Origin: Paraburkholderia fungorum
GTDB lineage: Bacteria > Pseudomonadota > Gammaproteobacteria > Burkholderiales > Burkholderiaceae
NCBI RefSeq assembly: GCF_900099835.1
Contig: NZ_FNKP01000003.1
Location: forward strand, 806,001 to 870,000
Reading direction: 5' to 3'
DNA length: 64,000 nt
Shown: one piece after another, positions 10,200-34,356 of the stretch
Numbering within the stretch: the stretch's first letter is position 1
How the letters are laid out: every line of letters starts with the position of its first letter
Notes under the pieces: model-generated
Database searches by the model: none
Told to the model about the DNA's origin: nothing
What the model saw: only the letters and a program-made list of their open reading frames with translations
Position numbers and translations under genes: made by a program

Positions 10200-10247
10200 T
10201 ACGCGAATTGAACACAGCCGGCTCAGGCCGGAATTCAGGAGATCGTC

Positions 10248-11504: not shown

Positions 11505-11520
11505 TCCCTCGGAAGATTGA

Positions 11521-11556
11521 CGTTGCTGCCCGCTGATGCGTCAGCGGGCAGCAACG
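11521..11556 (+). other. Perfect intercistronic stem-loop between arcA and the antiporter gene
   Basis: A perfect 16-bp stem (CGTTGCTGCCCGCTGA with its complement) has a 4-nt TGCG loop and no T-tract. It begins 16 bases after the arcA stop. It could be a rho-independent-like pause, an RNA-stability element for arcDA mRNA, or a partial terminator that lowers expression of the next gene. Confidence 0.7.
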
Positions 11557-11636
11557 CATTCGCGATTGGCTGGTGCCAACGTTGCCGAAGTGATCGCGAC
11601 GAGTCGCAGCGTGTGCCGATACGGGGACAAGCTTAA

Positions 11637-13156: not shown

Positions 13157-14488
13157 TCATTCGCCGATCAGCTTCCTGTTCAACCGCCGCATCCCTTCGA
13201 AGATCGAGCCGGCGATATCCATCGGAAAATCTTCCGGCAATAACGACGAGACTTCTTCGATCACTGCTTCGGTCCGCTCGGTTAGCGCGTCGATCATCGC
13301 GTCGATGTCGGCTGCGGAAAACCCGACGCGTTGCCCTTGCGCAATCCAGTGCCGCCGCTGGATCTGACTGAGCTGATAGTGGACGTTCTTGCCGCGCACA
13401 GCCATCGCGAGTTTCACCTTCTGTGCGGCGAGGCGGCCCGTTCCCGTGCCGATAATCGGATGCGCGGACAGCACGTCGTAAAGCGGCGTGGCCTCATAGC
13501 GGCTGCCTGGCAGATGGGCGATGCTGAAGTTCTTTGCATGGCCGTCGGTTGCCGCAAGCAGCCAGAAAACCATCTGCGTGACGAAGAAGTTGCGACGGTC
13601 GGTTGTCGCGCGCTCCGAGCCGGACAGCACTTCCATGATTGCCTCGATGCCGGGTCCGCCGTCGGCCTCGTACTTGTGTAGCGCCGACGTGCCCGTCGCC
13701 TGGCACATGTCCTCTTGTGGGAGTCGCACGATCCACGTAGCGTCGCTGGACGGCCGGCGGTCGAACCGTTCGACGATCAACACTTTCTGATCGTCGAATC
13801 GCGCGATTTCGCAACGGGCGACGGGCAACCCGTAGGCCGCCACGATTTGCGAGCAGAGCCATTCGTTCTCGACCGAGGTGCGCATGTCGGCGCGCATATT
13901 GCCGACGAGCCCGAGCGGAAGCTTGAAAATGTGCGTGGTCGGCGTGCTGCCCTCGGGCAACAACCAGCGGTTGCGATGCCGCAGAAGCGCGGTTTTTTCC
14001 TGCGCGCCCGCGATGGACAAACGTAGGTCTTCCAATGGATCGTCCCGGCCTGGTGCCGACGTGGAGGTCGTTCCCCGCAGAAGCTGGGCGATTTCGCTTT
14101 CGCTGAGTACCCGTCCGGCGATGCTGGCGAGATCGGTCGGCGCTTCGTCCGGCGGCAACATCTGAAGAGCGCCGACGCAGTCGCGCCCGAGCGCCGCCAG
14201 AAGGGGGAACGGCGCGGTGCTGCCGGTCTTATAGCGTGTAGCGATCCGTCGACGGATCGGCTCGCTGTCGGGGAGCAGGTTGTCGAAATAGTCCGCGACG
14301 ATCTGGCCGCGATACGGCTGATTACCCGGCGTAAAAGGAAGCGATAGCGAAAGCGGCCGGCCTTGGGGATCGTCGATCCAGTCGTCGTGATAGACGAGGC
14401 GCTCGCCGCCGCGCGTGGCCTCCCAGTGGCCGACTTGAAGGCCGTTCATCCACAGGTTCAGGCGGTTCGGATGCGTGCTTCGCGCCAT
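13157..14488 (-). CDS. hipA: HipA-family serine/threonine kinase toxin
   Basis: A 443-residue type II toxin of the HipA kinase fold. The N-terminal HipA_N region (LNLWMNGLQVGHW... with YFDNLLPDSE...R near residue 70) is followed by the kinase core. This includes SIAGAQEKTALL, KLPLGL and the catalytic loop ATDGHAKNFSI, with Asp315 as the likely phosphotransfer base, then YDVLSA. E. coli HipA phosphorylates glutamyl-tRNA synthetase and slows growth; this one probably inactivates a tRNA synthetase or related target. It starts 2 bases after the antitoxin stop and is transcribed with it. Confidence 0.9.
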   Translation of the reverse strand: MARSTHPNRLNLWMNGLQVGHWEATRGGERLVYHDDWIDDPQGRPLSLSLPFTPGNQPYRGQIVADYFDNLLPDSEPIRRRIATRYKTGSTAPFPLLAALGRDCVGALQMLPPDEAPTDLASIAGRVLSESEIAQLLRGTTSTSAPGRDDPLEDLRLSIAGAQEKTALLRHRNRWLLPEGSTPTTHIFKLPLGLVGNMRADMRTSVENEWLCSQIVAAYGLPVARCEIARFDDQKVLIVERFDRRPSSDATWIVRLPQEDMCQATGTSALHKYEADGGPGIEAIMEVLSGSERATTDRRNFFVTQMVFWLLAATDGHAKNFSIAHLPGSRYEATPLYDVLSAHPIIGTGTGRLAAQKVKLAMAVRGKNVHYQLSQIQRRHWIAQGQRVGFSAADIDAMIDALTERTEAVIEEVSSLLPEDFPMDIAGSIFEGMRRLNRKLIGE

Positions 14489-14490
14489 GC

Positions 14491-14973
14491 TTACCAGTCC
14501 TCCCGTTTCTTGCCGACGCTTTTGGGCTTGGCGGTGCTGCGCAGAGCGGGTTTTGCCTTCGTGTTTTTAGCGCGGGCAGACGTGGCTTGCGGAGTTTCCT
14601 CATCGCGCGAAGCTTGGGCTTTGCCCTTTGCGTTGCGCGCCGTTGCCGTTGGCTCTTTCTTCGTCGAGCGCGTAGCAGCGGTTTTACGTGGAGCCTGCGC
14701 GATGGACGTCGATTGAATCGTATCTTCCGCGACGACGTCGCTTTCCGGCGATCCGGCCGCGCGAGGGATGAGCGTCAAATCGACTTGAAGCACCCGCAGA
14801 ACCCTGAATAACCGATCCACACTGACAGCGGCGGGATTGGCTTCGAGTTGCGCATAGGTTTGCTGTGTTACGCCGAGATGACTGGCCATGCCGGCCTGCG
14901 TGAGTCCCGCAGCTTTGCGGAAGCCTTGCAGAATCGGCCTCAATTGGCCCAGCGTCTTGATGGGGTAGTCCAC
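14491..14973 (-). CDS. hipB: HipB-type antitoxin, HTH-XRE regulator with a lysine/alanine-rich tail
   Basis: I chose the GTG at 14971-14973, which has GGAG seven bases before it and gives 160 residues. The longer open frame to 15063 lacks a ribosome site and would run into the operator. Residues about 10-65 are a standard XRE helix-turn-helix (AAGLTQAGMASHLGVTQQTYAQLE). HipB proteins bind HipA and repress the operon. Unusually, from about residue 72 to the end it is a low-complexity tail rich in Lys, Ala, Thr, Ser and Arg (ARAKNTKAKPALRSTAKPK), about as long as the DNA-binding part. The tail may add nonspecific DNA binding, a protease-sensitive degron or HipA contact. Confidence 0.85.
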   Translation of the reverse strand: MDYPIKTLGQLRPILQGFRKAAGLTQAGMASHLGVTQQTYAQLEANPAAVSVDRLFRVLRVLQVDLTLIPRAAGSPESDVVAEDTIQSTSIAQAPRKTAATRSTKKEPTATARNAKGKAQASRDEETPQATSARAKNTKAKPALRSTAKPKSVGKKREDW

Positions 14974-15004
14974 AGCAGATCTCCGACTCGTGTTTCGACA
15001 CAAT

Positions 15005-15079
15005 AACAGGTTAAAGCCTGTTAAATATTTATACAGTCTATACGCTGTATTGTAAAAATACAACCTAAAGGCTGTTAAA
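15005..15079. promoter_or_regulatory. Putative HipB operator region
   Basis: Just upstream of hipB are an inverted repeat AACAGG-TTAAAG-CCTGTT (15005-15022), a second inverted repeat ATACAG-N8-CTGTAT (15031-15050), and a near-copy of the first motif, CTAAAGGCTGTTAAA (15065-15079 beside TTAAAGCCTGTTAAA at 15011-15025). Repeated palindromes at this place are typical HipB autoregulatory sites. Confidence 0.6.
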
Positions 15080-15080
15080 A

Positions 15081-15756
15081 GCGGTGTTGCCCAACCGCCG
15101 TACTCGACCAGCTATCGGCAAGTATCGCGAGACGATAGCTGCAACTAACGGTCAACGAAAATTCGCCCCTTGCTTCGCTGCTCCGCAGTCATCTCCCAAG
15201 CCGACAGGATCACCATCTGAGCCTATACACCGCCCGCAGCAGGGTTCTTCAAGTTTCGCTGGTTCTTTCACTTATCAGGGCCTTTCAGAGTTGTCTGATA
15301 TTTGTAAATTAACCTCAACCGTATTCTTTCGGCGAAATAAAGAAGATGAGTTTTTAAGAGATAAGTTTATTTAAATAAATTCGTATGAATTGAATGAAAT
15401 TTGAAAGAAAAGACACTCTCCGGGCGATAACGCGATAGACCTTAATTCAAGTCAGAAGGCCCCATGGCGTTACGGTTTTCGAATCATCGCGTACCACGAA
15501 AACGCTGCCTTAAATTACCCAAAGAAATTTCTGCAATGAGTGATCGAAAAATCGCATTTTAAATTTTGAGCATGAAAACGCGAAATGGGATTTGGTTTTG
15601 AGATTGTGAAATGAAGGAAAACATAAAACATGAATTCCACAGGGAATGAGTTTTATGAGTGTCGAACAGAAGAGTAAATGTGCACGGGGAAAAGCAGCTC
15701 ATCGCAAATGCGCTGGCGTTTAAAGAGCACATATTTTTAACATCTATCCAGAATAA
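15081..15756. other. AT-rich leader region upstream of the polyketide synthase gene
   Basis: About 675 bases, AT-rich from about 15270 on, with long A/T runs unlike the genes on either side. Open frames in it (15084-15374, 15559-15762) have no coding character that I trust. It must hold the promoter of the polyketide operon. No single -35/-10 pair stands out, and no clear ribosome site precedes the synthase start. Confidence 0.45.
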
Positions 15757-18700
15757 ATGCACATGCGTGATATTGCTGTGGTCGGAATGGCATGCCGCCT
15801 TCCTGGTGGGTTGGACGATCCTGATTCCCTGTTGGCTGCGCTGCGTGAGCGGGTCGTCACCGCAGGTCCCATTCCGGCAGATCGCTGGGATTCGGCTCGC
15901 TACTATTCGGCGGACGAAAGCGTGAAGGGCAAGGCCTATGTCAACCAGGCCAATTTTCTCACGCAGGACGTCCGCTCAATGGATGCGGACTTCTTCGATC
16001 TGCCCGCGCGCGTTGCTGAAAATCTCGATCCGCAGCAACGCCTGTTGCTCGAACTGATCTGGGAAGCGTTCGAAAACGCCGGCCTCGACCTGCCTGCGCA
16101 TGCGGGCAGCAAGGTCGGCGTCTACGTTGGCGGCTTCATGCTCGACCACATGGTCACGCTGATGCAGGTCGCCAACCGCACGCGCCATAACGCCAACACT
16201 GCAGCCGGCATGATGATGACCATGCTGGCGAACCGCCTGTCCTACGCATTCGATCTTCGCGGACCGAGTCTTTCTATCGATACGGCCTGTTCGTCGTCGC
16301 TGGTTGCATTCAGTTATGCGTGCCGCGACATCTGGTCGGGCGACTGCGACATGGCCGTCGTCGGCGGCGCGAACGTGATGACGCGTCCCGAGTTTTCGAT
16401 CGGTATGAGCAAGGGCCAATTCCTTTCGCGCGACGGCCAATGCAAATCCTTCGACGCGCGCGGCGATGGTTACGGCCGCGGCGAAGGCGGCGGCATCGTG
16501 TTGCTGAAGACGCTGGAAAAAGCGCTTGCAGACGGCGACACCATTCTGGCGACGGTCGCGGGTGCGGGCGTCAATTCGGACGGCCGTACGCCCGGTATTT
16601 CAATGCCGAGTGTGCAGGCGCAAAGCCAACTGATCCGCGAGGTCTGCGAGCGCTTCGAGATCGATTCGAACGCGGTGCGCTATGTCGAGTGTCACGGTAC
16701 GGGCACGGCGGTGGGCGATCCGCTCGAAGCGGCATCGATTGGATCGGTTTATGGCGCGGGCCGTCATGGCGACGATCGTGTCGTGCTGGGCTCGATCAAG
16801 AGCAATATCGGGCATCTGGAAGCGGGCGCGGGCGTGGTCGGCGTGATCAAGGCCGTGCTCTCGCTGATACATCGCGAGGCATTCCCGCTCGGCAATCTGC
16901 AAACTCCACACCCCGGCATTGCGTTCGACGAGTTGGGCGTGCGTCTCGCCGATGCATCGATTCCGCTGGCCGAACCGAACGAGCCGTTCCTCGTGGCGGT
17001 CAATTCCTTCGGCTATGGCGGGACGAATGCACACGTCGTGTTGCGTTCGGCGCCGCAAGGGACGCGCGAAGCAGCGGTTGCGGCGTCGGCGCGTCCCGCT
17101 GGTTTCCCGCTGTATCTGCCGTTGTCCACGCGTAGCCCGGCTGCGCTCAAGGCGCTGGCACAACGTTACGCGGATTGTCTGTCGAAGCCCGGCGCGCAAG
17201 TCGCCGATCTGCTGCATTCCGCTGCTTTACACCGTGCCCCGTTGAACCATCGCGCGGTCGTTCTGGGTGCTGACGCGCGCGAATTGCTCGACGCGCTGGC
17301 CGCGTTGCAGCAGGGCGAGAAATCGGACAAGGTCGTCACGGGTCAACAGCTTTCGCCGGGGCAGCAGTTGCCGGTGTGGGTGTTCACCGGCATGGGCCCG
17401 CAATGGTGGGCGATGGGTCAGGAACTCTATCGCGACGAGCCCGCGTATCGCGCTGCGGTCGATGAAGCCGACCAGATTTTCCAGCGCATCGCCGGCTTCT
17501 CGATCCTCGTTGAAATGCTGAAGAGCGAGGCCGAATCGCAGATCACGCGAACCATTCACGCGCAGTCGGCGAACTTCATGATTCAGTGGGGCATCGTGGC
17601 CGTGCTTCGCGCGGCAGGTGTCACGCCGGGCGCGGTGATGGGCCATAGCGTCGGCGAAGTGACGGCCGCCTGTGTCAGCGGCGCGTTGAGCCTGCCGGAC
17701 GCGTTGCGCGTGTGCTACGAGCGCAGCCGTCTGCAGGCGACTACCGCAGGCAGCGGCAGCATGCTTGCGGTCGGCCTTGACCGTGAAGCCGTCGCCACGC
17801 TGCTGAAACCGTTCGAAGGACGCGTCGAAATCGCCGCGATCAACGGACCCACCACGCTCACGCTGTCCGGAGAGACGGCGGCGATCGAAGCGCTGGCCGT
17901 AGAACTCGCCGCGCGCGAGGTTTTCCATCGCGTGCTGAACGTGGAAGTGCCGTACCACAGCTATCTGATGGAACCGATTCTGGCCGAGCTTGCTTCGTCG
18001 CTGGACGGGATCGTCGCGCGCGAGCCTCAGGTTCCGCTGTACTCGACGGTCACCGGCCGCCGCGCCGAAGGACCTTCGTTCGGCGCCACGTACTGGCCGA
18101 AAAATGTCCGTCAACCGGTCGCGTTCGCCGACGCGGTTCAGGCCTTGCTTGACGACGGCTTTACCACTTTTGTCGAAGTCGGTCCCCATCCGGTGTTGTC
18201 GAGCGCGCTGCGCGATTGCGCCAAGGCGCGCGCGAAAGAAATCCGCCTTGTCGAAACGCTGCGCCGCAATGAAGCCGAGCGCGCGCGCCTGCATCGCACC
18301 GTTGCGCAGGTGTTCGCAAGCGGTTGCGAGATCGACTGGACGTTGCTCAATGGCGAAGGCCACGTTACCGCGCTGCCGAACTATCCGTGGCAACGCGAAC
18401 GTGCGTGGCTCGAAACCGATCGCGCGATTTATCAGCGTGTCAGCCCGACCGATCGCCCCATGCTCGGCTGCGAGCAATACCCCGCGCACGACGTGTGGGT
18501 CAACGATCTCGAACACGACGGCCTCGCGTATCTGAAGGATCACATCGTGTCCGGCACGTCGATCATGCCGGCAGCCGGGTATGTGGAGACACTGCTCGAA
18601 ATCGCCGCGCTACTGCATCCGGACGCGCCCGGCTGGCGTCTGAACGACGTGGAGATTCGCGCGCCTCTCGTCATTTCGAGCGACCGCGCGATCGACTACG

Positions 18701-21700
18701 TATCGAGCTACGAACGCGGCACGAACCGCGCGACGATCCGCAGCGTAGAAAGTGGCAAGACCGGAGAAGGGCAGCTGCATCTGACTGGTGGCGTCGGCGC
18801 GTTGCAGTCGGCGGAAATCCGTCATGTCGATCTGGAAGCGTTGAAAGCCGCGCTGTCCAACGAGCAGGACCCCGCCGTGTTCTATCGCGAGTTGTCGCGT
18901 ATCGGTCTGCAATACGGGGCGAAGTTCCAGTCGGTACGGTCGCTGCGTCTCGCGCCGCAAGGCGGCCGCGTGCTCGCACTGATCGAACGTGATGCCGCTC
19001 TGCGCAGCGACGGATATCACGCTCAGCCGGTCATGCTCGACGCCTGTTTCCAGGTCCTCGTCAGCATGCTCGACGACAATGAATCGACCTTTCTGCCCAC
19101 GGGCTTCAGGGAACTCCGCCTGCTCGTGCCGGCGCTGCCGGACCGCTACTGGTGCGACGCCGTGCAGGTCAGCGCGACGCCTCGCCATGTCGACGCCGAC
19201 CTGACGATCATGGACGATGCAGGTCGCGTGCTGGCGGTGATCCGCGGGCTGCGCGTGACGGCGTCGTCGGCGAAGGTCGAACGTACGGACGCATACGGCG
19301 ATCCCGTGAAGCTGCAAATGCCGCGCTACGAATGGTCCGATGCAGGCCGGTTGTCCGAGCCGAAGCGTCTCGGACACTGGCTGATCGTCGAAGATCGCGC
19401 CACAGCGGCGCTCGCCGACCGGCTCACCGCCGGGTTGGAAGCATTCGGCGCGCGAGTTTGCGCGCGACTGAGCACGGCTTCGTCGCTCAGCATTCAACGC
19501 GAACGGATGACCGTGCGTCCCGATTCCAACGACGATATTTCAACGGCATTGCAAGCCGCCGGCGCGTTGCATGGTGTGGTCTTCGTTCATGGTGCGAATG
19601 CGAAGCTCGACGGCGCAGACCCGACCGGCTCGGGGGCGCTGCTCCTGATGCATGCGGTGACACGTCATCTCGCGGGCTTGCCGGTGTCGGAAAGGCCGCG
19701 TGCTTATGTGCTCACGCGCGATGCGTTCAACGTTATCGACGGCGATGCACCCGTGCAGCCCGCGCAGACTGCGCTCAACGGTTTCGCCCGCGTCGCGTTC
19801 AACGAACTCGAAGGCCTGCGCTTTACCACCATCGACGTTCCGGCCACTGAAACCGACCACGATATCGACGCCGCGATTCTCGAGTTGCTGTGTGACGCGC
19901 CAGAGGACGAAGTTGCGATCCGCCGTGGACGCCGCTTCTTCAGCCACCTTGTCGCAAGTCCCGTGTTGAGCCAGCCGCGCATCGAGCCGGTGGCGCTGAC
20001 CGCCAACCGCGCGGTCCAGGTGCGCAGCCTCGGCGAACACGAAGAAGGCGCGGGCAGCGTCAAGCTGATCGAAATCGCCCGCTTGCCATTGAGCGACGAC
20101 GAAATCGAGCTAAAGACGGAAAGCGTCGCGTTGACGATGCGCGCGCTGCGTACCACGAACGGCGACACGCTCGATCAGAACTTCGTCGAAGTGATCGCGA
20201 CGGTTCACGCGGTTGGTGCAGCCGTCTCCGATCTGCGCGTAGGGCAGCGGGTCTACGGCCTCGTGCCCGCCGACTTCGCCAGCCACCTTCGCGGACCGCG
20301 GTCGACCTTCCATCTGGTCGAACTAGCCGATGACACGAATGCAGCGCCGTTGTTGCTGGTGGCGGCGCGCGAGGCAGTTGCCGAACGTCTGGTCGAGCAG
20401 GCGGATCTCGATCGTCACGCTCGTGTCCTTGTCGAAGCCGACGAGTTGGGTCTGTCGATCAGCTCGGCGTTGCGCCGGCGCGGCATTCAGACCACTGTGC
20501 TGACGCGGCCGGGTACCGTTGCGCCGAAGCTCACAGCGGACTGCAAGCTGATCGAAGCGGGCTGCGACGCGCTGGAAGCAGCGGTTGCCGAGGTCACGCA
20601 AGGCCGAGGTTTCGACGCGATTGTCGCGCCGATGGGCGCATGGGCCGACACCTTCGGCTGGCGCTCGCTCGCCGCAGGCGGCGTTCTGATCGACACCGAC
20701 CCGCATGCCGGCGCGTTCACGCTGCCGCAGTCGGCTTCGTCGATCGTGCGGGCGGACCTGTCGGTGTTGACGCAACGTGCTGGCCGCTTCGCCGAAGCGC
20801 TCAGCCGGGCCGTGAGCTGTGCAGGTACGAGCGAAATCGTCGCGCCGGACAGCCTGTCGGTATCGATTGTCGATCTCGCGACCCGCAAGTTCGCGCTGCC
20901 CGATAGCGACTTGCCGTTGATCGTCCACTTCGACGACGCATCCACTGCATTGCAGGTGCGCGTGCACGAAGCAATCACGTTCGCGCCCGACGCCACGTAT
21001 CTCATCACCGGCGGCCTCGGTGGCTTCGGCCAGAAAACGGCGCACTGGATGGCGGAGCGGGGCGCGCGTCATCTGGTGCTGGCCGGCCGCAGCGGTGCCG
21101 ATACCCCGGAGCGCAGCGCGTTCGTCGCCGATCTGCGTCAGCGCGGCGTGACAGTGGTCTGCGTGAAATGCGATCTCGCTCACGAAGGCCAGGTGCGCGA
21201 TCTGTTCGCGACGATTGCCGCGTCGGCGCCGCCGCTGCGCGGGGTGTTCCACGCGGCGGCGGTCATCATCGATCAGCCGATTGCCGAACTGAACCCGCAA
21301 GACCTGCTCGACGTGATGCGCAGCAAAGCTGAAAGCGCGCGTTTGCTGCACGAATTGACCCGCGAGATGACGCTCGATCACTTCGTGCTCTATTCGTCGA
21401 TCGCGAATCTGGTCGGCAATAGCCGTCAGGCCAGCTACGTCGCCGCGAACGGTTTTCTCGACGGACTCGCGTGGCGTCGCCGTGCAATGGGACTGCCGGC
21501 CATCAGCATCAACTGGGGGGCGATTGCGGATGTCGGCGTGGTAACGCGCGATGCCAAGCTCGAACAGTTCATGCGCTACATGGGCTTGCGCGGCATGGAA
21601 TCGGCGGAGGCGCTGAGCTGGCTCGAACGCGCGATGTTGCGCGACGTCACGCAACTGGGCGTCACGCTGATCACCAACTGGAGCGAGTGGAGCCGCTACG

Positions 21701-22098
21701 AGACGCTGGGGGGACAGTCGCCGCGTTACGCAGAGCTGATTGCCGCCGACACCCGCCCCGACGCCGACCCCGGCGCGGTATTGCGCGCCGAACTGGCCGA
21801 GGTGCCCGCCGTCGAGCGCTTCACCGTGCTGGCGAGCCTGGTCGCGTCGTTGATCGCCGACGAACTGGAAACCGATGCCGAAGCTATTCCAGTGGATCGG
21901 CCGATCCTCGATCTGGGCGTCGATTCGTTGATGGCGACCGAGATCCAGGCGCTGCTTGGACGCGACCTCGGCATCAGCGTATCGGTGCTCGAGATTCTCG
22001 ACGACCTGACGATCCGCGCGATCGTCGACAAGGCGCTGAATGCGTTCGGATGGGGCGAGCAAGGCGATGCCGCTGCGGCAGAAGTTCAGGCCGCGTGA
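15757..22098 (+). CDS. Single-module type I polyketide synthase (KS-AT-DH-psiER-KR-ACP), no thioesterase
   Basis: A 2113-residue multidomain enzyme. Ketosynthase, 3-425: Cys178 in DTACSSS, His313 in HGTGT, His353 in NIGHLEAGAG. Acyltransferase, about 539-865: Ser631 in GHSVGEV; the specificity site reads VPYHS (His734) rather than the textbook HAFH or YASH. Dehydratase, about 895-1190: His929 in HIVSGTSIMP and Asp1095 in LDACFQ. Then a ketoreductase structural subdomain and, at about 1417-1690, an enoylreductase-like domain whose nucleotide-binding glycine loop is replaced by VEADELG (1559-1565). Ketoreductase: GGLGGFG at 1752, Ser1881, Tyr1894. Acyl carrier: Ser2057 in GVDSLMA. No methyltransferase or release domain. 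It probably works iteratively and hands the acyl chain to the next enzyme. The start could also be the ATG at 15763. Confidence 0.93.
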   Translation: MHMRDIAVVGMACRLPGGLDDPDSLLAALRERVVTAGPIPADRWDSARYYSADESVKGKAYVNQANFLTQDVRSMDADFFDLPARVAENLDPQQRLLLELIWEAFENAGLDLPAHAGSKVGVYVGGFMLDHMVTLMQVANRTRHNANTAAGMMMTMLANRLSYAFDLRGPSLSIDTACSSSLVAFSYACRDIWSGDCDMAVVGGANVMTRPEFSIGMSKGQFLSRDGQCKSFDARGDGYGRGEGGGIVLLKTLEKALADGDTILATVAGAGVNSDGRTPGISMPSVQAQSQLIREVCERFEIDSNAVRYVECHGTGTAVGDPLEAASIGSVYGAGRHGDDRVVLGSIKSNIGHLEAGAGVVGVIKAVLSLIHREAFPLGNLQTPHPGIAFDELGVRLADASIPLAEPNEPFLVAVNSFGYGGTNAHVVLRSAPQGTREAAVAASARPAGFPLYLPLSTRSPAALKALAQRYADCLSKPGAQVADLLHSAALHRAPLNHRAVVLGADARELLDALAALQQGEKSDKVVTGQQLSPGQQLPVWVFTGMGPQWWAMGQELYRDEPAYRAAVDEADQIFQRIAGFSILVEMLKSEAESQITRTIHAQSANFMIQWGIVAVLRAAGVTPGAVMGHSVGEVTAACVSGALSLPDALRVCYERSRLQATTAGSGSMLAVGLDREAVATLLKPFEGRVEIAAINGPTTLTLSGETAAIEALAVELAAREVFHRVLNVEVPYHSYLMEPILAELASSLDGIVAREPQVPLYSTVTGRRAEGPSFGATYWPKNVRQPVAFADAVQALLDDGFTTFVEVGPHPVLSSALRDCAKARAKEIRLVETLRRNEAERARLHRTVAQVFASGCEIDWTLLNGEGHVTALPNYPWQRERAWLETDRAIYQRVSPTDRPMLGCEQYPAHDVWVNDLEHDGLAYLKDHIVSGTSIMPAAGYVETLLEIAALLHPDAPGWRLNDVEIRAPLVISSDRAIDYVSSYERGTNRATIRSVESGKTGEGQLHLTGGVGALQSAEIRHVDLEALKAALSNEQDPAVFYRELSRIGLQYGAKFQSVRSLRLAPQGGRVLALIERDAALRSDGYHAQPVMLDACFQVLVSMLDDNESTFLPTGFRELRLLVPALPDRYWCDAVQVSATPRHVDADLTIMDDAGRVLAVIRGLRVTASSAKVERTDAYGDPVKLQMPRYEWSDAGRLSEPKRLGHWLIVEDRATAALADRLTAGLEAFGARVCARLSTASSLSIQRERMTVRPDSNDDISTALQAAGALHGVVFVHGANAKLDGADPTGSGALLLMHAVTRHLAGLPVSERPRAYVLTRDAFNVIDGDAPVQPAQTALNGFARVAFNELEGLRFTTIDVPATETDHDIDAAILELLCDAPEDEVAIRRGRRFFSHLVASPVLSQPRIEPVALTANRAVQVRSLGEHEEGAGSVKLIEIARLPLSDDEIELKTESVALTMRALRTTNGDTLDQNFVEVIATVHAVGAAVSDLRVGQRVYGLVPADFASHLRGPRSTFHLVELADDTNAAPLLLVAAREAVAERLVEQADLDRHARVLVEADELGLSISSALRRRGIQTTVLTRPGTVAPKLTADCKLIEAGCDALEAAVAEVTQGRGFDAIVAPMGAWADTFGWRSLAAGGVLIDTDPHAGAFTLPQSASSIVRADLSVLTQRAGRFAEALSRAVSCAGTSEIVAPDSLSVSIVDLATRKFALPDSDLPLIVHFDDASTALQVRVHEAITFAPDATYLITGGLGGFGQKTAHWMAERGARHLVLAGRSGADTPERSAFVADLRQRGVTVVCVKCDLAHEGQVRDLFATIAASAPPLRGVFHAAAVIIDQPIAELNPQDLLDVMRSKAESARLLHELTREMTLDHFVLYSSIANLVGNSRQASYVAANGFLDGLAWRRRAMGLPAISINWGAIADVGVVTRDAKLEQFMRYMGLRGMESAEALSWLERAMLRDVTQLGVTLITNWSEWSRYETLGGQSPRYAELIAADTRPDADPGAVLRAELAEVPAVERFTVLASLVASLIADELETDAEAIPVDRPILDLGVDSLMATEIQALLGRDLGISVSVLEILDDLTIRAIVDKALNAFGWGEQGDAAAAEVQAA

Positions 22099-22136
22099 TA
22101 TCGGCCCGCGTCTGAAACAATCAAGGAGTGTCGAAT

Positions 22137-23486
22137 ATGACTGCTGAAACGCACGTCGAGCGTCTGCGAGCCAGGCTGCTCGGCAAACAGGGCGGCGCAG
22201 CCGCGTCGGGCGACGACGCGCCGATGGCGCGGGCCGCTTCCGCCAGGGTCGCGGTGGGCCCCGAGCATTACGACTTCGCGCAGTTTCCCGAACTGCGCGA
22301 GTACGCGAACACGCGCTGGTACTACGACAAGCAGGGCTACGAGTGGAACATGTTCCGCGAGCATGTCGGCGTGGCCAGCGCGGAAGTCGAAGTCGCCGGA
22401 CGACGGGTGATCAATTTTTCGTCGTACAACTACCTCGATCTGTCGGGCGATCCGCGTGTGCAGGCCGCAGCGAAACAGGCCATCGACGACTTCGGCACGT
22501 CGACCGGGTCGGGGCGGATCATCATGGGCGAGATTCCTGTCTTCAACGAGTTCGAGCGGGAACTCGCGGACATGCTCGGCGTCGAGGACGCGGTGCTCGG
22601 CGTCAGCGGTTATGGCACCAACGTCGCGGCAATCGGCTATCTCGCGCGCAAGCAGGACCTCGTGCTGTACGACGAACTGGTTCACAACAGCATGCTGGTC
22701 GGCGCCAAACTGAGCGGCGCGCGCCGCTTCGCGTTCCCGCACAACGATTGCGATGCGCTGGAGCGGTTGCTGGTCGAGCATCGCGGCAACTTCGAGCGCG
22801 TGCTGATCCTGACCGAAGGCGTGTTCAGCATGGACGGCGATATTCCCGATATCCCGCGAATGATCGAGATCAAGAAGCGGCATCGCGCGCTACTCATGGT
22901 CGACGAAGCGCACTCGATGGGCGTGATCGGTCCGCGAGGACTCGGCGTGGTCGATCACTTCGGTTTGAACAGCGCGGATATCGACGTGCACTATGCGTCG
23001 ATGAGCAAAGCGTTCGCGACGATCGGCGGCTACATTGCCGGCCGCCGCGAGTTGGTCACGATGCTCAAATACTACGCGCCGGGGCTTGGCCTCTATATCG
23101 CCTCGCCGATGCCGGCGAACGCCGCGGCTGGCCTGGCCGCGTTGCGCATCATGCGCGCCGAGCCGGAGCGCGCGCGCCGCGTGGTGGAGAACGCCAACTA
23201 CTTCCGCGAGCAGGCGGCGCGCGCGTCCCTGAATGTCGGGGCGAGTGCGGGGTCGGCGGTGATTCCGGTGATGTTGCCCGACGCGGAAATGGCGCTGTGG
23301 ATGGCCGCGCGGATGTTCGACAACAACATCTTCACGTTCCCGATGATTTTCCCCGTAGTGCCGCGCGACGCCGCGCGCCTGCGCTTCTTCGTCAACACGG
23401 CCCATACGCGTGAACAGATCGATCGCACGATTCGTCTGCTTGCTGAACTGAAGGCTAACGCGCCGGCGAGCAAGGGGCTGTTTTGA
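22137..23486 (+). CDS. Alpha-oxoamine synthase family PLP enzyme (AONS/serine palmitoyltransferase-like)
   Basis: A 449-residue fold-type I PLP enzyme; the ATG at 22137 follows AAGGAG by 8 bases. Family motifs are intact: FSSYNYLDLSGDP, FGTSTGSGRIIMGE, the cofactor-binding DEAHSMGVIGPRGLGV (Asp256, His259) and the PLP lysine Lys291 in SMSKAFATIGGY. Members join an acyl thioester to an amino acid (glycine, serine or alanine) with loss of CO2, giving an alpha-amino ketone. It lies directly behind a polyketide synthase that has no thioesterase. The natural reading is that it takes the acyl chain from the carrier domain and releases it as an amino ketone, as in fumonisin or sphinganine-type chemistry. 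Residues 1-45 are an extra, low-complexity N-terminus. A biotin-pathway role (BioF) is unlikely here. Confidence 0.9.
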   Translation: MTAETHVERLRARLLGKQGGAAASGDDAPMARAASARVAVGPEHYDFAQFPELREYANTRWYYDKQGYEWNMFREHVGVASAEVEVAGRRVINFSSYNYLDLSGDPRVQAAAKQAIDDFGTSTGSGRIIMGEIPVFNEFERELADMLGVEDAVLGVSGYGTNVAAIGYLARKQDLVLYDELVHNSMLVGAKLSGARRFAFPHNDCDALERLLVEHRGNFERVLILTEGVFSMDGDIPDIPRMIEIKKRHRALLMVDEAHSMGVIGPRGLGVVDHFGLNSADIDVHYASMSKAFATIGGYIAGRRELVTMLKYYAPGLGLYIASPMPANAAAGLAALRIMRAEPERARRVVENANYFREQAARASLNVGASAGSAVIPVMLPDAEMALWMAARMFDNNIFTFPMIFPVVPRDAARLRFFVNTAHTREQIDRTIRLLAELKANAPASKGLF

Positions 23487-24517
23487 AGCAGATTCGCTTT
23501 GATGTTTTCGGTCCGCCGTCGCACGCGGCGCGCTGCTGCGAGGTGCCGTCGCCGGGCCAGCCATCGGCGTGGGAAGTGCTGGTCGATGTCGAAGCCTGCG
23601 CGATCAACCCGGCCGACCTGGCGAGACTCGCGGGGCGCTACGGCGAGTTGCCGAAGCTCCCTGCCACCCTCGGTCTCGATGCGGTCGGGCGGATCGTCGC
23701 TTGTGGCTCCTCGGTGGCGGACCTCGCCGTGGGCGACCGCGTCATTCTGATCAGTAACGACAACTGGTGTCAGCAGCGCCGTCTCGCCGCGTCGCAGGTG
23801 TTCAAGGTTGCGCCCGAACTCGACGTGCTGCAGCTTGCGGCACTCAAGGTGGGCGCGTGCACGGCGCTAGAACTGGTGCGCCGTCACGCCGCCCTGGAGC
23901 GGGGCGCATGGATCGTGCAGACAGCGCCGTTGTCGAGCGTCGGGCGCGCGGTGATGCAGATCGCGCGGCACGACGGCCTGCGCACGCTGAACATCGTGCG
24001 GCGTCCTGACGCGATCGACGAAGTGAAAGCGGCTGGCGGTGATGCCGCCATCGTCGATGGTCCGGATCTGGTCAAGGCTGCCCGGGACGTCATGGGCAGC
24101 GCGCCGGCGATGCTTGCGCTCGACGCGGTCGGCGGCAATGGCGTTGCGAGGCTCGCCCAGCTACTCGAGCGCGGCGGCACGATCGTCAACTACGGCATGT
24201 TGTCCGGCAAGCCGATCGAACTCGGCTGCGACGAAGTCATTTTCGGCGGCATCAATCTGAAGGGCTTCTGGTTGACCCAATGGCTATCGCGCATGACGCA
24301 AGTACAGCGCAACACACTGATCGCGGAGGCGGTCGGTTTGCTGAGCCTCGGCGTTCTCCACGCAGAAATTGCAGCGACCTATCCGCTCGATGCCATCGGC
24401 AACGCGTTGCGTCATGTGGACGAACCGGGCCGTCGCGGCAAGGTTTTTCTGCTGCCGAACGGACCCATCGAGCGGCACAGCACGTCGCCTGTCGATGCTG
24501 TCGCCGCCCATCGTTAA
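23483..24517 (+). CDS. MECR/ETR-like 2-enoyl-thioester reductase (MDR superfamily)
   Basis: A 344-residue medium-chain reductase without zinc ligands. The segment GRYGELPKLPATLGLDAVG around Tyr53 and the nucleotide-binding stretch TAPLSSVGRAVMQIA followed by LRTLNIVRR match the mitochondrial/bacterial enoyl-thioester reductase group better than plain quinone reductases. It starts with TTG inside the stop of the preceding gene (TTGA overlap), so translation is coupled. Because the enoylreductase domain of the synthase has lost its NADPH loop, this enzyme may reduce the enoyl intermediate in trans, as stand-alone reductases do for some fungal synthases. Reduction of the amino-ketone product is a less likely alternative. 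Confidence 0.78.
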   Translation: MKQIRFDVFGPPSHAARCCEVPSPGQPSAWEVLVDVEACAINPADLARLAGRYGELPKLPATLGLDAVGRIVACGSSVADLAVGDRVILISNDNWCQQRRLAASQVFKVAPELDVLQLAALKVGACTALELVRRHAALERGAWIVQTAPLSSVGRAVMQIARHDGLRTLNIVRRPDAIDEVKAAGGDAAIVDGPDLVKAARDVMGSAPAMLALDAVGGNGVARLAQLLERGGTIVNYGMLSGKPIELGCDEVIFGGINLKGFWLTQWLSRMTQVQRNTLIAEAVGLLSLGVLHAEIAATYPLDAIGNALRHVDEPGRRGKVFLLPNGPIERHSTSPVDAVAAHR

Positions 24518-24532
24518 AGAATCGGAATATCC

Positions 24533-25270
24533 ATGAGTATCGATCTGCATGAATCCGCGCCGCACGATGCGGACGCCGGGCACGTAGCCGCGCGCGCCGC
24601 GCCGGTTGCACGCCTGATCGGCGTGAGCAGGACATATGGCGATGTGCATGCGCTTGCCGACATCAACCTGGACGTCCAGGCCGGCGAGATGCTGGCGATT
24701 GTCGGGCCATCCGGCAGCGGCAAGACCACACTGCTGAACCTTATCGGCCTGCTCGACAAACCGTCGGCGGGCGAGATCCAGGTGTTGGGTGAATCGACGG
24801 CGCGCCTGAGTCCGGTGGAATACGCGAAGCGCCGGCAATCGTCGATTGGCTTCGTATTCCAGAGCTACAACCTGATCCCCGTACTCGATGCAGTCGACAA
24901 CGTGTTGCTGCCGCTGCGCCTCGCCGGTCGCACGAGCCATGCGCAGAATGCACGCGCTCGCGAACTGCTCGACGAAGTCGGACTGCAGGGGCATCACCAC
25001 AAACGCCCGGACCAGATGAGCGGCGGGCAACGTCAGCGTGTCGCGATCGCGCGTGCGTTGATCACCGAGCCTCGCCTGGTTATCGCCGATGAGCCGACCG
25101 CCAGCCTCGACACCGACAACACACGAGCGGCGATGCAACTGTTCCAGCGACTCAACCGGACGCACGGCGCGACCTTCGTTTTTTCGACCCACGACGAGCG
25201 CGCGTTGCGCTATATGAGCCGGTCCATACGCCTATGCGACGGACGGCTGCCAGATGGAGAAGAACTCTGA
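24533..25270 (+). CDS. LolD/MacB-type ABC transporter ATPase
   Basis: A 245-residue nucleotide-binding subunit: Walker A GPSGSGKTT at 58-66, the LolD-like Q-loop region SIGFVFQSYNLIPVLDAVDN, the signature MSGGQRQRV and Walker B LVIADEPTASLD, ending with the switch histidine in FSTHDERAL. This subgroup powers mechanotransmitting transporters (LolCDE, MacB, FtsEX) that act on periplasmic or membrane-embedded cargo rather than importing solutes. It has a 25-residue N-terminal extension. Its stop overlaps the start of the permease gene by one base. Context suggests it drives extraction of the pathway product from the inner membrane. Confidence 0.88.
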   Translation: MSIDLHESAPHDADAGHVAARAAPVARLIGVSRTYGDVHALADINLDVQAGEMLAIVGPSGSGKTTLLNLIGLLDKPSAGEIQVLGESTARLSPVEYAKRRQSSIGFVFQSYNLIPVLDAVDNVLLPLRLAGRTSHAQNARARELLDEVGLQGHHHKRPDQMSGGQRQRVAIARALITEPRLVIADEPTASLDTDNTRAAMQLFQRLNRTHGATFVFSTHDERALRYMSRSIRLCDGRLPDGEEL

Positions 25271-26448
25271 TGCATTCGCTTGTTCTCGCGCTCAAGAACG
25301 CGTTCAGAAACCGCCGTCGCAGTTTTGTCACGCTGGCCGCAATTGCCCTCGGGCTCGCCGCGATCAATCTGTTTAGCGGTTATATCGCCAATGTTTATGC
25401 AGGGCTTGAACAGCAGGCCGTGATGGGCGAACGGCTTGGACATCTGACGATCTTCAAACGGGGCTTCGAGCTGGAAGGCAAGCTCCATCCAAAGCGCTTT
25501 CTGTTTTCGCCAGAAGAAACGAAGAAAATCGACGCGCTTATTTTGCGTGAGCCGGGCACGAAACTGGTGTCGCCGCGGCTCAGTCTGAACGGGCTGATTT
25601 CGAATGGCAACGCGTCGACGGTATTCATTGGCGAGGGCATTGTTGCCGACCATAACGACAAACTCGGCGCGGCTCTCGAAGGCGATTCGGGCGGTCACCT
25701 CGATCCGCATAGCGATGCTGGCGTTGCCGTGTCGTCTGATCTCGCGAAGCTGCTCGACCTTAAAAAGGGCGAGACCTTCAGCCTGCTAGCTTCGACTATC
25801 GACGGCCAGGCCAACGCGGTCGATGCGGATGTCGTCGATATTTTCAACACCGGCAGCGCGGGCACGAATGACAAATATGTGCTGACCACGCTCGCGCTCG
25901 CGCAGTCGCTGATGAATACCGAGCAGGTGAAGCTGCAACTGAGCCATCGTCTGCGGGCTGCAGGATTCGATGTCGAGATCAGAACATGGCAGGAAATGTC
26001 GAGCTTCTACACGCAGGTGAAGGGCCTCTTCGACATGATCTTCTCGTTCATTGCAAGCATCGTTCTCGTGATCTCCGCGATGAGTGTGGCGAACACGATG
26101 TCGATGGCGGTGATCGAGCGCACCCGTGAAATCGGCACGCTGCGCGCGCTGGGTCTGACTAACGCGGGGGTGGTCAGGCTGTTTGCATTCGAAGGATTCT
26201 GGATCGCGCTGCTCGGCTGTCTATTGGGTCTGATCGTCACGATCATCGCCGCGCTTTGTATTAACGCCTCTGGCATCGGCTATATGCCGCCCAATTCATC
26301 CGATCGCGTGCTGCTCCAGGTCGACCTCGACTGGATTCGTATGGGTGGCATCGCGCTGGCAGTGAGCTTCTTTGCTGTGCTGTGCGCCGCCTATCCGGCG
26401 TATCGCGCGACGCGCGTCGAAGTGGTCGATGCATTGAGCTTCGTTTAA
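25270..26448 (+). CDS. LolC/E-like FtsX-domain ABC permease
   Basis: A 392-residue membrane protein whose ATG overlaps the ATPase stop (TGATG). One membrane helix near the N-terminus (FVTLAAIALGLAAINLFSGYIA) is followed by a periplasmic domain of about 230 residues and three C-terminal helices, the FtsX arrangement. The conserved cytoplasmic stretch VIERTREIGTLRALG between helices 2 and 3 is present. The protein would dimerise with itself, since only one permease gene is present. LolCDE-type pumps lift lipidated cargo out of the inner membrane and pass it to a LolA carrier. A LolA-like gene follows next, which supports a lipid-export role. Confidence 0.85.
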   Translation: MHSLVLALKNAFRNRRRSFVTLAAIALGLAAINLFSGYIANVYAGLEQQAVMGERLGHLTIFKRGFELEGKLHPKRFLFSPEETKKIDALILREPGTKLVSPRLSLNGLISNGNASTVFIGEGIVADHNDKLGAALEGDSGGHLDPHSDAGVAVSSDLAKLLDLKKGETFSLLASTIDGQANAVDADVVDIFNTGSAGTNDKYVLTTLALAQSLMNTEQVKLQLSHRLRAAGFDVEIRTWQEMSSFYTQVKGLFDMIFSFIASIVLVISAMSVANTMSMAVIERTREIGTLRALGLTNAGVVRLFAFEGFWIALLGCLLGLIVTIIAALCINASGIGYMPPNSSDRVLLQVDLDWIRMGGIALAVSFFAVLCAAYPAYRATRVEVVDALSFV

Positions 26449-26492
26449 GCGGCTGGGTCGCTTCAATTGTTTCTTTATCAGGTATGACGTTT

Positions 26493-27269
26493 ATGCAGCT
26501 CTTAAAGAAGACCGCTTTTCTGCTGGCTTCGCTGGTGCTCGCCAGTGCAACTTACGCGGCCGGTTCACCAGCCAATTCAACATCGACGCCGGACGCGACG
26601 CAGATCGTGGCGGCCAGCGATCGCGCTCGCGGCGGCGGCCTCAATGGCGTGCAATGGACCATCGACATTACGGGCCAGGATTCGGGCGGACCGATCGACA
26701 AGCGTACGTATGTTGTCCGCGCAAGCGGTGAAGACAGTCTCGCCGAGGCCACCTATCCGCCGCGCGAAGCGGGTGGCCGTCTGTTGCAGAACGGACGCAG
26801 CATGTGGTTCGGCAAGTCGACGCTGACCAAGCCTGTCTCCATTTCGACGCGACAGAAAATGGTGGGCCCTGCATCGAATGGCGACATTGCGTCCACCAAC
26901 TACGCGAAGGATTACGACGCCACGTTGCTCCGTATCGAGCAGGTGAACGGTGAAAACGCGTACGTGCTCGATCTGGTCGCGAAGAGCAAGTTCGTGACCT
27001 ACGACCGGATCGTCTACTACGTGTCCATGTCGCGCCTCGTGCCGCTCAAGGCCGAGTTTTACACCGTATCGGGGAAGATCTTCAAAACGGCTTCGTTCGA
27101 AATGGGGAACCGACTCGATATCGACGGCGCTGTGCAGCCGTTTGTCAGCAAGATGAGTATTCAGGACGCTATCGACAAGTCGAACTTCTCGTTGCTGCAA
27201 TACAGCGAAGTCACCACGAAGAAATTCGGCGCGGATATGTTCAACCTCGGCTCACTCAATCGCCCCTGA
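26493..27269 (+). CDS. LolA-like outer-membrane lipoprotein-sorting protein
   Basis: A 258-residue exported protein. The ATG at 26493 is preferred to 26484 because only it has a usable AGG spacing. The signal peptide runs to about residue 22 (LLASLVLASATYAA). The mature protein has the half-barrel LolA-like pattern: a stretch with YVVRASGEDSLAEATYPPREAGGR, then SISTRQKMVG and YAKDYDATLLRIEQVNGENAYVLDLVAK, with RLVPLKAEFYTVSGKIFKTASF near the end. This PF17131-type group is often encoded beside lipid-handling transporters. It probably carries a hydrophobic product across the periplasm. It is exported and not lipidated, as the signal has no lipobox. Confidence 0.8.
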   Translation: MQLLKKTAFLLASLVLASATYAAGSPANSTSTPDATQIVAASDRARGGGLNGVQWTIDITGQDSGGPIDKRTYVVRASGEDSLAEATYPPREAGGRLLQNGRSMWFGKSTLTKPVSISTRQKMVGPASNGDIASTNYAKDYDATLLRIEQVNGENAYVLDLVAKSKFVTYDRIVYYVSMSRLVPLKAEFYTVSGKIFKTASFEMGNRLDIDGAVQPFVSKMSIQDAIDKSNFSLLQYSEVTTKKFGADMFNLGSLNRP

Positions 27270-27287
27270 TCGCAGGCTATCGAAGTC

Positions 27288-28646
27288 ATGCATCTGAAAA
27301 GGGCGAAGGGACGGCCGCGCAAGCAGCCGGTCGGAACGACGCGTGTCGCGCTTGGCCTGCTTCGCACGCTCGCGCTGATATCGACCGTTATGCCGGATTC
27401 GGTGCGGGCTGCCGACGCGCAGGATGACGACGCGTCGTCGGGCCGCTTCACGTTGCGTCAACATACGCAACTGGTCGGCTACGCGTCGGCGTACGTCGTC
27501 AATACGCGCTCGCTTGCCAATCCGAATAACCAGATCGCGAAGCTGCCCACAACGCAGGCGCAATTCGCTCCTCGGGTGGACCTGACATTGACGGTCGATC
27601 CGTGTTATCTGCAACTGAAGCCGCGTGGCTTTTTCGTCTGGCAAGGCAATACGCCTGGCGCGAGCGGCACGTCGACCGACGCTTACCTCAATGAAGGGCG
27701 TCTGTCATGTCAGGCGGGTCCGGTCAATGTCGAGGTTGGCCGCAGCGTACTGCTTTGGGGCAGTTCGATCATGCTGTCGCCGAGTAACCCTTTTTTCGCG
27801 GAAACGGGCAAGACCGATCCGGTCAGGGAGTTGCTTGGTCGCGACATCGTGCGCGTGAGCGCGCAGATCAACCCGTCGTGGAGCGTTGAAGCGATCAGCA
27901 ACTTCCACGTGGATACACGCGATACGACAAAAGAAAACTTCTCTCCCGTGACGGCGCTCAAGGTCAACTGGACCGGCGATTCGGCGTCGGCGAGCGCGCT
28001 GGTGTCGCATCGCGATAACGGGGTGGACCGGATCGGCGCATATGGAACATGGACGGCGTCGGATGCGCTGCTGTTCTATGGCGACGCGTCGTTGGGGCGT
28101 GGGCGTAATGCGTTATTCGCCGTACAGCAGCCCCAGGCACCGGCAGGTTGGACCTTCCTGCAAAATCAGACACGCGACAGTTCGCTTCGCACGAGTGCGC
28201 TGCTCGGCGCGAGTTACACGTTTATCTCGGGTTGGACCCAAACTCTCGAACTGCTCTACAACGGCGATGGGTACAGCAGTGGTGAACGGCGTTCTTATCA
28301 GAATGCGATTCAGTCCGGCAATACGGCGCTTGCAGCAGGTAATGCAGCGGCGGCAGGTTTGCTCGGGCAATCCCTTAACCCGCAGCAGAGTCTCCTCGGG
28401 CAACGTTACGCGCTGGTTCAATTGGGCCGTACGGATCTGTTCAACAAGCTCGATGTAACGCTACGGTACATGCAGGCATTCGACGCGCCACGAGGCGGTA
28501 ATCTGGCATTGTCGGTCAACTACAAATTGAGCCCGACAGCGGAACTGTTTGCATACGGGCAATGGAATGTGGGGAATTCGCAGTCCGAGTTTGCCCAGCT
28601 CTACCGGTTCTCCGTGATAAGTGGTTTGCGGTACTACTGGAATTGA
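27288..28646 (+). CDS. Outer-membrane beta-barrel protein of the polyketide/export operon
   Basis: A 452-residue protein with an export signal ending near VRAAD. The rest is a series of alternating polar/aromatic strands (VDLTLTVDPCYLQLKPRGFF, GPVNVEVGRSVLLWGSS, LGASYTFISGWTQTLELLYNG, LDVTLRYMQAF) closing with SVISGLRYYWN, as expected for an outer-membrane barrel. The stretch VEVGRSVLLWGSS resembles the DUF1302-type barrels that pair with LolA/LolB-like proteins and lipid transporters; I cannot confirm the family. It follows the LolA-like gene by 18 bases and is the last gene of the operon. It is the likely outer-membrane acceptor or exit point for the product. Confidence 0.75.
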   Translation: MHLKRAKGRPRKQPVGTTRVALGLLRTLALISTVMPDSVRAADAQDDDASSGRFTLRQHTQLVGYASAYVVNTRSLANPNNQIAKLPTTQAQFAPRVDLTLTVDPCYLQLKPRGFFVWQGNTPGASGTSTDAYLNEGRLSCQAGPVNVEVGRSVLLWGSSIMLSPSNPFFAETGKTDPVRELLGRDIVRVSAQINPSWSVEAISNFHVDTRDTTKENFSPVTALKVNWTGDSASASALVSHRDNGVDRIGAYGTWTASDALLFYGDASLGRGRNALFAVQQPQAPAGWTFLQNQTRDSSLRTSALLGASYTFISGWTQTLELLYNGDGYSSGERRSYQNAIQSGNTALAAGNAAAAGLLGQSLNPQQSLLGQRYALVQLGRTDLFNKLDVTLRYMQAFDAPRGGNLALSVNYKLSPTAELFAYGQWNVGNSQSEFAQLYRFSVISGLRYYWN

Positions 28647-32870: not shown

Positions 32871-33176
32871 CCGGGGTCTCCGTGTCGTATGTTTTTCTGT
32901 CGATACGTCGCCTAACCTGTCGTAACGTTATCGGTAACATGCGATACTAAGCAGACGCTGCAACAGTCGCTATGCGGGGTTTACCTGACCCGTTCCACGG
33001 TGTCATCGACAGGCGCCGATTCGTGCGCGAGCGGGCTACATCCGAAGGTCGCCGAAGTCGGAAAAAGAGGTGGCTGCGTATTCCGAAAGCCGTTAAACGG
33101 TCCGGCACGCAGCCGATATTGAAACCGCATCAGTTTGATAAGCTTGACCGGATTACACATCGGGTCAGACCAACGC
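32871..33176. other. Divergent promoter region of the xylanase and LacI regulator R1
   Basis: A 306-base region between divergent genes. The recognisable element is the LacI-type operator at 32924-32941. No palindrome of the system-1 type was seen here, so R1 may not repress the xylanase. Confidence 0.5.
32924..32941. promoter_or_regulatory. LacI-family operator upstream of the xylanase (system-3 type)
   Basis: The site reads AACGTTA-TCGG-TAACATG, 54 bases before the xylanase start. It has the same half-sites and 4-base spacing as the operators at 53652, 53812 and 63782, and resembles the TGTTACC/GGTAACA sites of GntR-like LacI proteins. Confidence 0.7.
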
Positions 33177-34235: not shown

Positions 34236-34356
34236 GTGACGGCTCATGGCTAACCCGTACTTGAACCGCAACCGGCATTGCGTATTTCGGGAAATCCGAT
34301 TGCGATTTTCGCCGCCGACTTGACACTATTCGTTCTACAAGCAAAGATGCGCTGGC

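Follow-up and report, generated by a model that had tools for sequence, protein, structure and literature searches.

How does a long-chain lipid assembled on a bacterial polyketide synthase (PKS) reach the cell surface, and could the synthase bring a transport line of its own? This question is raised by a seven-gene operon (15757..28646, + strand) of the soil bacterium Paraburkholderia fungorum, which lies in a 64,000-nucleotide stretch of contig NZ_FNKP01000003.1 (positions 806,001 to 870,000; assembly GCF_900099835.1). The whole stretch is here called the window, and coordinates refer to it unless a locus is named. The operon probably builds a sphingosine-like lipid on its PKS and ships it to the surface by its own line, and we consider it fairly likely that what it makes and exports is a very-long-chain sphingoid-type lipid.

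Gene content of the operon

All seven genes run in the same direction, and domain and motif searches confirmed the order and families given in a sequence-only reading of the window, with small corrections of start sites. The first gene (15757..22098) encodes a single-module type I PKS of 2113 amino acids with the domain order KS-AT-DH-(degenerate ER)-KR-ACP and without a thioesterase, as identified by Pfam and motif string searches. Adjoining it is the gene for a pyridoxal phosphate (PLP)-dependent alpha-oxoamine synthase (AOS) related to serine palmitoyltransferase (SPT) and AONS (22128..23486, with an ATG at 22137; domain matches, motifs, and PDB sequence matches), followed by that for a stand-alone enoyl reductase (ER) of the MDR type, similar to ETR/MECR (23483..24517; PDB sequence matches). 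The remaining genes make up a four-gene candidate export line: a LolD-like ABC transporter ATPase (24533..25270; Pfam, equivalog scores, and motifs), an FtsX/LolC-LolE-like permease of 392 amino acids encoded by the only permease gene of the operon (25270..26448), a LolA-like periplasmic carrier with a signal peptide (26484..27269; PF17131), and an outer-membrane beta-barrel protein of 452 amino acids that belongs to no Pfam family and was recognized from a structure model (27288..28646).

Conserved linkage of synthase and export line

Related loci were collected in an AOS scan of named genomes, from which the best 80 of 377 loci were kept. With the window and with six loci from Pseudomonas added, a quick tree of 87 AOS rows was built. 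The 14 rows with both an FtsX-type permease and a LolA-like carrier formed one AOS clade (support, 99) with nothing else inside; its 13 members other than the window are the loci nearest to it by AOS among the best 80, and all carry both genes (13/13). This linkage in every clade member (14/14) supports the earlier claim that a Lol-like line is tied to the PKS-AOS pair, and the line is apparently dedicated to the PKS-AOS lipid. The order PKS-AOS-ER-ABC-FtsX-LolA-outer-membrane protein is kept in 10 of the 14, so that the synteny check suggested by the sequence-only reading found the arrangement of the window in nine further loci (L015-L021, L023, and L024). These ten loci occupy at least three flank contexts (the window with L015, L016, L017, and L023; L018-L020; and L024), between which likeness stops at the PKS and at the barrel. 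L021 probably represents a fourth context but was not counted, as one right-side gene was compared and two left-side genes may be pieces of the PKS.

In the other four clade members (L022, L025, L030, and L033), the permease, the LolA-like protein, and a third protein similar in size to the barrel are encoded upstream of the PKS. Identity to the window is 76 to 84% for the KS and 70 to 77% for the AOS, but only 33 to 37% for the permease and 31 to 34% for the LolA-like protein. The permeases and LolA-like proteins of these loci are instead 65 to 70% and 61 to 69% identical, respectively, to those of a stand-alone cassette (L112). The ATPase gene lies beyond the locus edge in L022, L030, and L033, and only its end is in view in L025; an ABC gene at 20 kb in L022 (35% identity) is unrelated. 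Profile comparison gave a weak link between the barrel-place protein of this upstream type and the window barrel (probability, 22%; E value, 9e-4). A single clade for all PKS-AOS-linked permeases was rejected in a tree of 42 permeases (p-AU, 2.5e-5; lnL difference, 515), which contains long branches and from which L021 was excluded because its gene is in pieces. One synthase clade therefore carries two separately derived Lol-like lines.

These results bear on the possibility that the two halves of the operon are neighbors and not partners, the lipid made by PKS, AOS, and ER travelling on housekeeping routes while the cassette carries a lipoprotein, a peptide, or an antibiotic. Cassettes do occur on their own, in three cases next to a two-component pair, and in Pseudomonas fluorescens a plasmid with only sgaAB, which encode a related PKS-AOS pair, restored sphinganine production in an sgaA mutant, so that synthesis needs no such line (PMC12134224). 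However, linkage in 14/14 clade members with two non-orthologous cassettes, and a gene order kept over at least three flank contexts, make mere adjacency improbable.

Other exporters accompany PKS-AOS genes outside this clade. L026, L065, and a further five loci (from Methylobacter, Nitrosomonas, and an unclassified proteobacterium) have an MMPL transporter with a LolA-like protein. They sit at three separate positions of the AOS tree outside the window's clade; three changes are needed to explain them, two of which are forced by well-supported branches. Profile comparison found no link between the barrel-place protein of the MMPL type and the window barrel, and no Pfam barrel match was obtained for the barrel-place proteins of either the MMPL-LolA or the upstream-type loci. 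HlyD, AcrB, or OEP parts occur in PKS-AOS loci of Planctomycetes and Rhodopila, and L046 contains ABC2-type, ABC_tran, and Poly_export genes (L046: 11321-15717). None of the four exporter or metallo-beta-lactamase labels was assigned to 57 of the 87 rows; the Pseudomonas loci L132-L137, missing from the label table, were entered as "none," and their own scan gave no LolA, FtsX, or MMPL label. At 0 to 3.3 kb, upstream of the PKS, L018-L020 hold a gene for an ABC protein (in L018 with both ABC_membrane and ABC_tran) and one for a TolC-type OEP, a possible second exporter in these three loci.

In the bacterial family of the window, three of 200 genomes had the AOS (E value limit, 1e-110, which excludes some AOSs of the SgaAB type scoring about 1e-109 to 1e-115) and three of 200 had the barrel (E value limit, 1e-10), with two genomes shared. 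A plasmid collection gave no match to the AOS at 1e-110 or to the permease at 1e-40. This patchy spread suggests horizontal movement as a block, as do the varied flanks and the presence of the cluster in Pseudomonas protegens (L024).

Lol-like cassettes without a PKS-AOS pair

Relatives of the permease were found in 2 of 229 genomes of the class, 6 of 299 of the family, and 12 of 399 of the order, at 30 to 53% identity except in genomes G000 and G020; the closest permeases outside the PKS-AOS loci, from Massilia, Duganella, and others, are 53 to 60% identical. Several of these contexts weigh against a cargo fixed by the transport family. Around permease relatives or extra LolA copies, 16 loci (L106, L107, L109-L113, and L151-L159) have an ABC-FtsX-LolA cassette with no AOS in view, and L115 has an MMPL-LolA set, again with no AOS in view. 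In L152, L153, and L156, the cassette adjoins a His_kinase/LytTR pair. As AOS-free cassettes exist, the cassettes are not lipid specific by family, and the idea that only PKS-AOS clusters have the transport genes was rejected at that level. Polyketide-type genes are in view of the cassette in L106, L107, L109, and L111, and a KS in L157; L110 shows an AMP-binding enzyme, and L112 and L113 both have a P450-KR fusion. Some flank genes were scanned in five of the L151-L159 loci; those of L157 gave no match, and L158 has one FAD oxidoreductase and one gene without a match.

The question whether the transport genes occur independently of PKS and AOS, which the sequence-only reading had named as decisive, thus received a mixed answer. 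They do at family level, and the AOS clade holds two unrelated versions of the line, but wherever its context was readable, the close version of the window's permease lay inside a PKS-AOS operon. The cassette appears to be a general module that PKS-AOS clusters recruited at least twice.

Proteins of the export line

The ATPase contains a P-loop (GPSGSGKT, residue 58) and the motifs MSGGQRQR (162) and LVIADEPT (182). Its LolD score of 206.8 bits lies under the equivalog cutoff of 307.75 and is matched by its DevA score (206.4), and the permease scored 95.2 to 96.3 bits for LolC/LolE against a cutoff of 362.45. Membership in LolCDE was therefore rejected; the housekeeping LolCE (484.8 bits) is encoded elsewhere in the genome. 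The operon nevertheless combines a LolD-like ATPase and a LolC/E-type permease fold with a carrier of the LolA superfamily, as in LolCDE-LolA, differing from that system in having one permease gene instead of two and a beta barrel with no LolB match among the seven operon proteins. The carrier matches PDB 3BUU, the LolA superfamily protein NE2245 (E value, 1.2e-30). It is the single strong LolA_like (PF17131) protein of its own genome (E value, 3e-29; next, 1e-6), and among 12 relatives, selected with prior knowledge of a LolA-like gene in their loci, the cluster copy was the sole one below 1e-20 in 9; the genomes of L019, L021, and L026 have additional copies. The last gene product models as a beta barrel whose nearest folds, among the matches listed, are OprD/Occ porins and AlgE; 25 homologues were found among 7,997 candidates scored.

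With these parts, delivery of the lipid to the outer membrane is plausible. It may instead be that the product is a released bioactive aminoketone or sphinganine-like metabolite, with the ABC-FtsX-LolA-barrel set acting as a secretion or self-protection pump. The channel-like folds nearest the barrel (again among the matches listed) would suit such a role, as would the tripartite-pump parts (HlyD, AcrB, or OEP) of related clusters in Planctomycetes and Rhodopila and the ABC and OEP genes beside the same kind of PKS in L018-L020. However, neither a membrane-fusion protein (HlyD) nor a TolC-type channel (OEP) was matched among the seven operon proteins, a carrier of the LolA type fits a strongly hydrophobic cargo, and related C24 to C28 lipids were measured in cell pellets too (PMC12134224). 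We regard such a pump as rather unlikely and retain delivery to the outer membrane as the working interpretation.

The AOS and its likely product

The AOS carries the motifs HNS (residue 186), DEAHS (259), and SMSK (291). Its nearest characterized counterparts are found in P. fluorescens MYb115, where the iterative PKS PfSgaA and the AOS PfSgaB, which has SPT activity, make C24 to C28 sphinganines and, in all likelihood, derivatives of them with phosphoglycerol (Peters et al. 2025, PMC12134224). The authors report 6,101 SgaAB-homologous clusters, dominantly in Burkholderia, name the cluster by sgaA plus sgaB, and regard the short-chain dehydrogenase/reductase (SDR) SgaC as "presumably" the reductase (PMC12134224). 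In the main text of that paper, no word begins with Lol, export, capsul, or Kps. The window shares with SgaAB a single-module, presumably iterative PKS beside an AOS, and its product class is by analogy predicted to be very-long-chain sphinganines; this kinship supports the earlier proposal of a PKS-derived long-chain amino ketone or amino alcohol lipid. As SgaC has no SDR counterpart among the seven genes, we call the operon a related variant of the SgaAB type and not a member.

Six Pseudomonas loci (L132-L137), taken from nine such AOS matches besides P. protegens in 249 genomes, are in our interpretation likely to be of the SgaAB type. Their PKSs are 2505 to 2537 amino acids long, their AOSs are 44 to 47% identical to that of the window, and an SDR label is nearby in five of the six. 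Unlike the window, they have no Lol-like line and no separate ER label; other PKSs of the wider branch keep an intact ER, whereas that of the window is degenerate. In the P. protegens locus (L024), an SDR upstream of the PKS was considered as a ketosphinganine reductase and rejected, with 506 bits for PRK05693 and only 140 for KdsR. In L136 (10874-18555), the one of the six for which neighboring genes were scanned, three Capsule_synth (PF05159) genes, a GNAT gene, and a Sulfatase-family gene lie beside the PKS-AOS pair, and four of the other Pseudomonas loci resemble it by gene sizes. Capsule linkers are built on lyso-phosphatidylglycerol. With capsule genes nearby and phosphoglycerol-sphinganines as most likely products of MYb115, these lipids might anchor capsules.

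Two observations weaken the case for a true sphingoid base. The PDB scores of the AOS are equal for AONS/KBL and SPT, so the sequence does not fix the amino acid substrate, and no ketosphinganine reductase is encoded in the operon, the best KdsR score of the genome being 189 bits against a cutoff of 400. What is exported may hence be the unreduced keto base or a derivative that an unlinked SDR has reduced. Both observations would also fit an AOS that uses alanine or glycine to give an aminoketone of the 1-deoxy type, which would be compatible with export by the same line. PfSgaB, however, uses L-serine with strong preference (PMC12134224), and the window and Pseudomonas AOSs have HNS, DEAHS, and the catalytic PLP lysine in common, which makes the 1-deoxy alternative unlikely; a serine-derived sphingoid base is preferred here.

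Among other records, P0037, labelled Burkholderia pseudomallei, encodes an AOS 76% identical to that of the window. In the actinobacteria Kibdelosporangium and Rhodococcus (L057, L064, L083, and L085), the AOS forms one section of a larger protein (about 1,500 amino acids), with a second AOS-like gene upstream in L064, L083, and L085.

Enoyl reduction

Motif string searches located DTACSSS (residue 175), GHSVGE (629), HIVSGTSIMP (929), GGLGGFG (1752), YVAANGF (1894), and GVDSLM (2054) in the PKS. The AT motif GHSVGE presumably indicates malonyl units. The cis-ER is degenerate: the stretch between DH and KR scored 10.5 bits against the intact ER of a related PKS, compared with at least 254 for PKSs with an intact ER, and the remnant (about residues 1445 to 1650; 20089..20706, + strand; domain score and motif alignment) has lost its nucleotide-binding motif (ARVLVEADELGL versus KVLIHGAAGGVGIA). 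The separate reductase gene follows in the same operon, and the four best PDB sequences for its product are mitochondrial enoyl reductases (E values of 1.6e-40 and weaker). By gene content this is a trans-ER arrangement.

The association was surveyed in 58 full-length PKSs, comprising the window and 57 of the 80 loci; the other 23 were excluded as they gave no full-length PKS call. A separate ER gene was in view for none of the 31 PKSs with an intact cis-ER and for 18 of the 27 with a degenerate one (Fisher p, 1e-8). Some of the data argue against a general rule. The other nine degenerate-ER PKSs (L025, L033, L035, L036, L037, L040, L045, L065, and L075) have no ER gene in view, and two of these, L025 and L033, fall within the AOS clade of the window itself; the contig of L025 stops shortly past the AOS, but that of L033 does not. 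Furthermore, the intact and degenerate types lie largely on different branches, the degenerate ones being mostly kin by descent, so that the counts describe an association and not a tally of independent events. The simplest reading remains that the degenerate-ER PKS is apparently served in trans by the ETR-like protein of the operon, which would act on PKS-bound intermediates.

PKS-AOS-ER clusters of cyanobacteria and planctomycetes (L027-L029, L031, L032, and L034) have a metallo-beta-lactamase-fold gene beside the ER (by Pfam in L028, L029, and L034 and by profile match in L027, L031, and L032); L029 has three FAD oxidoreductase-type genes too.

Proposed pathway

In the pathway we propose, substrate, amino acid, cargo, transport direction, and destination are all predicted from homology and gene content. 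The PKS would extend an acyl chain iteratively with malonyl units, and the ETR-like protein would reduce the double bond in trans in each cycle, because the PKS's own ER domain is degenerate. The AOS would then take the finished chain from the ACP, without a thioesterase, and condense it with an amino acid, most likely serine, with loss of CO2 to give a 3-keto-sphinganine. Enzymes encoded elsewhere might first reduce this base or add a head group. The LolD/LolC-E-like ABC pump would then lift it out of the inner membrane, and the LolA-like protein would take it across the periplasm to the barrel, which would put it in the outer membrane or release it.

Comparison with known systems

Parts of this scheme have precedents. 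In fungi, LovB/LovC pairs a reducing PKS with a dead ER and a trans-ER, and in Fum1/Fum8 an AOS releases the PKS product; the window differs in being bacterial and in its ETR/MECR-like reductase, and we know of no export line of the present sort in either fungal system. Heterocyst glycolipids are long-chain lipids made by a PKS and exported by the ABC exporter DevBCA-TolC with a membrane-fusion protein. The window ATPase scores about equally for DevA and LolD, but the operon has a LolA-like carrier, a barrel, and an AOS, the last not being known from the heterocyst system. The aryl polyene (APE) clusters, as in Escherichia coli, join a LolA-like protein to lipid genes, and a route to the outer membrane has been proposed for them, but with an RND transporter, a LolB-like protein, and discrete ACP-type enzymes (PMC8253772) in place of ABC-FtsX and barrel; from what is described of APE, the MMPL-LolA PKS-AOS clusters resemble it more than the window operon does. 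Likewise, the Caulobacter genes LptC2/F2/G2 are envelope-transport genes beside sphingolipid genes with proposed carriage to the outer membrane, but they are of the Lpt type, accompany a canonical SPT pathway, and have a transport role that is also only a proposal (PMC11324152).

A literature search over titles, abstracts, and passages, including few subscription papers, found no description of a PKS-AOS pair combined with a Lol-like line and a trans-ER. The earlier statement that no characterized system has all seven parts holds for the ETR-like reductase and the export line but not for the PKS-AOS half, characterized in 2025 (PMC12134224). With that core published, the novelty lies in the trans-ER arrangement and in a Lol-like line apparently dedicated to a probable sphingoid lipid that a PKS makes.

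Genomic surroundings

The intergenic region upstream of the operon (15064..15756, + strand, 693 bp), its presumed promoter region, has 42% GC, compared with about 54 to 65% in the surrounding 2-kb bins. A promoter scan found no sigma-70-like site on its + strand, and the promoter and terminator scans did not exceed chance level (4 found versus a mean of 3.9; 10 versus 13.9). Directly upstream (13157-15063, - strand) are a HipA-like gene (443 amino acids) and a helix-turn-helix antitoxin-like gene; a HipA gene is common to the flanks of L015, L016, L017, and L023. Farther upstream, an amino-acid permease, an arginine deiminase, and an NhaC/ArcD-like antiporter (8778-13148, + strand) form an arginine-deiminase-type set, and an open reading frame of 830 amino acids has no Pfam match (4309-6801, + strand). 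Downstream (31686-41067 and 49757-60771), GH10, a sugar-binding protein, GH31, a MalK-like ATPase, and GH3 perhaps form a plant-polysaccharide utilization region.

Implications

It is quite possible, if short of probable, that this line is the first known case of Lol-type transport reserved for a bacterial sphingoid lipid, moving a free polyketide-made lipid and not a lipoprotein. In that case, PKS-AOS synthases would appear to exchange whole export modules (the ABC-FtsX-LolA-barrel set, seen in two lineages, MMPL-LolA, and RND, with another branch maybe of the capsule type), and the neighboring exporter would set the destination of the same lipid class. The operon offers a way to test how sphingoid-type lipids cross the bacterial envelope, since the four-gene candidate line lies in one operon with its synthase in environmental bacteria and can be probed by single gene removals. 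If the proposal is true, Lol-type transport would be extended from lipoproteins to free lipids, and a bacterial PKS supplied with a trans-acting enoyl reductase would be added to the known systems.

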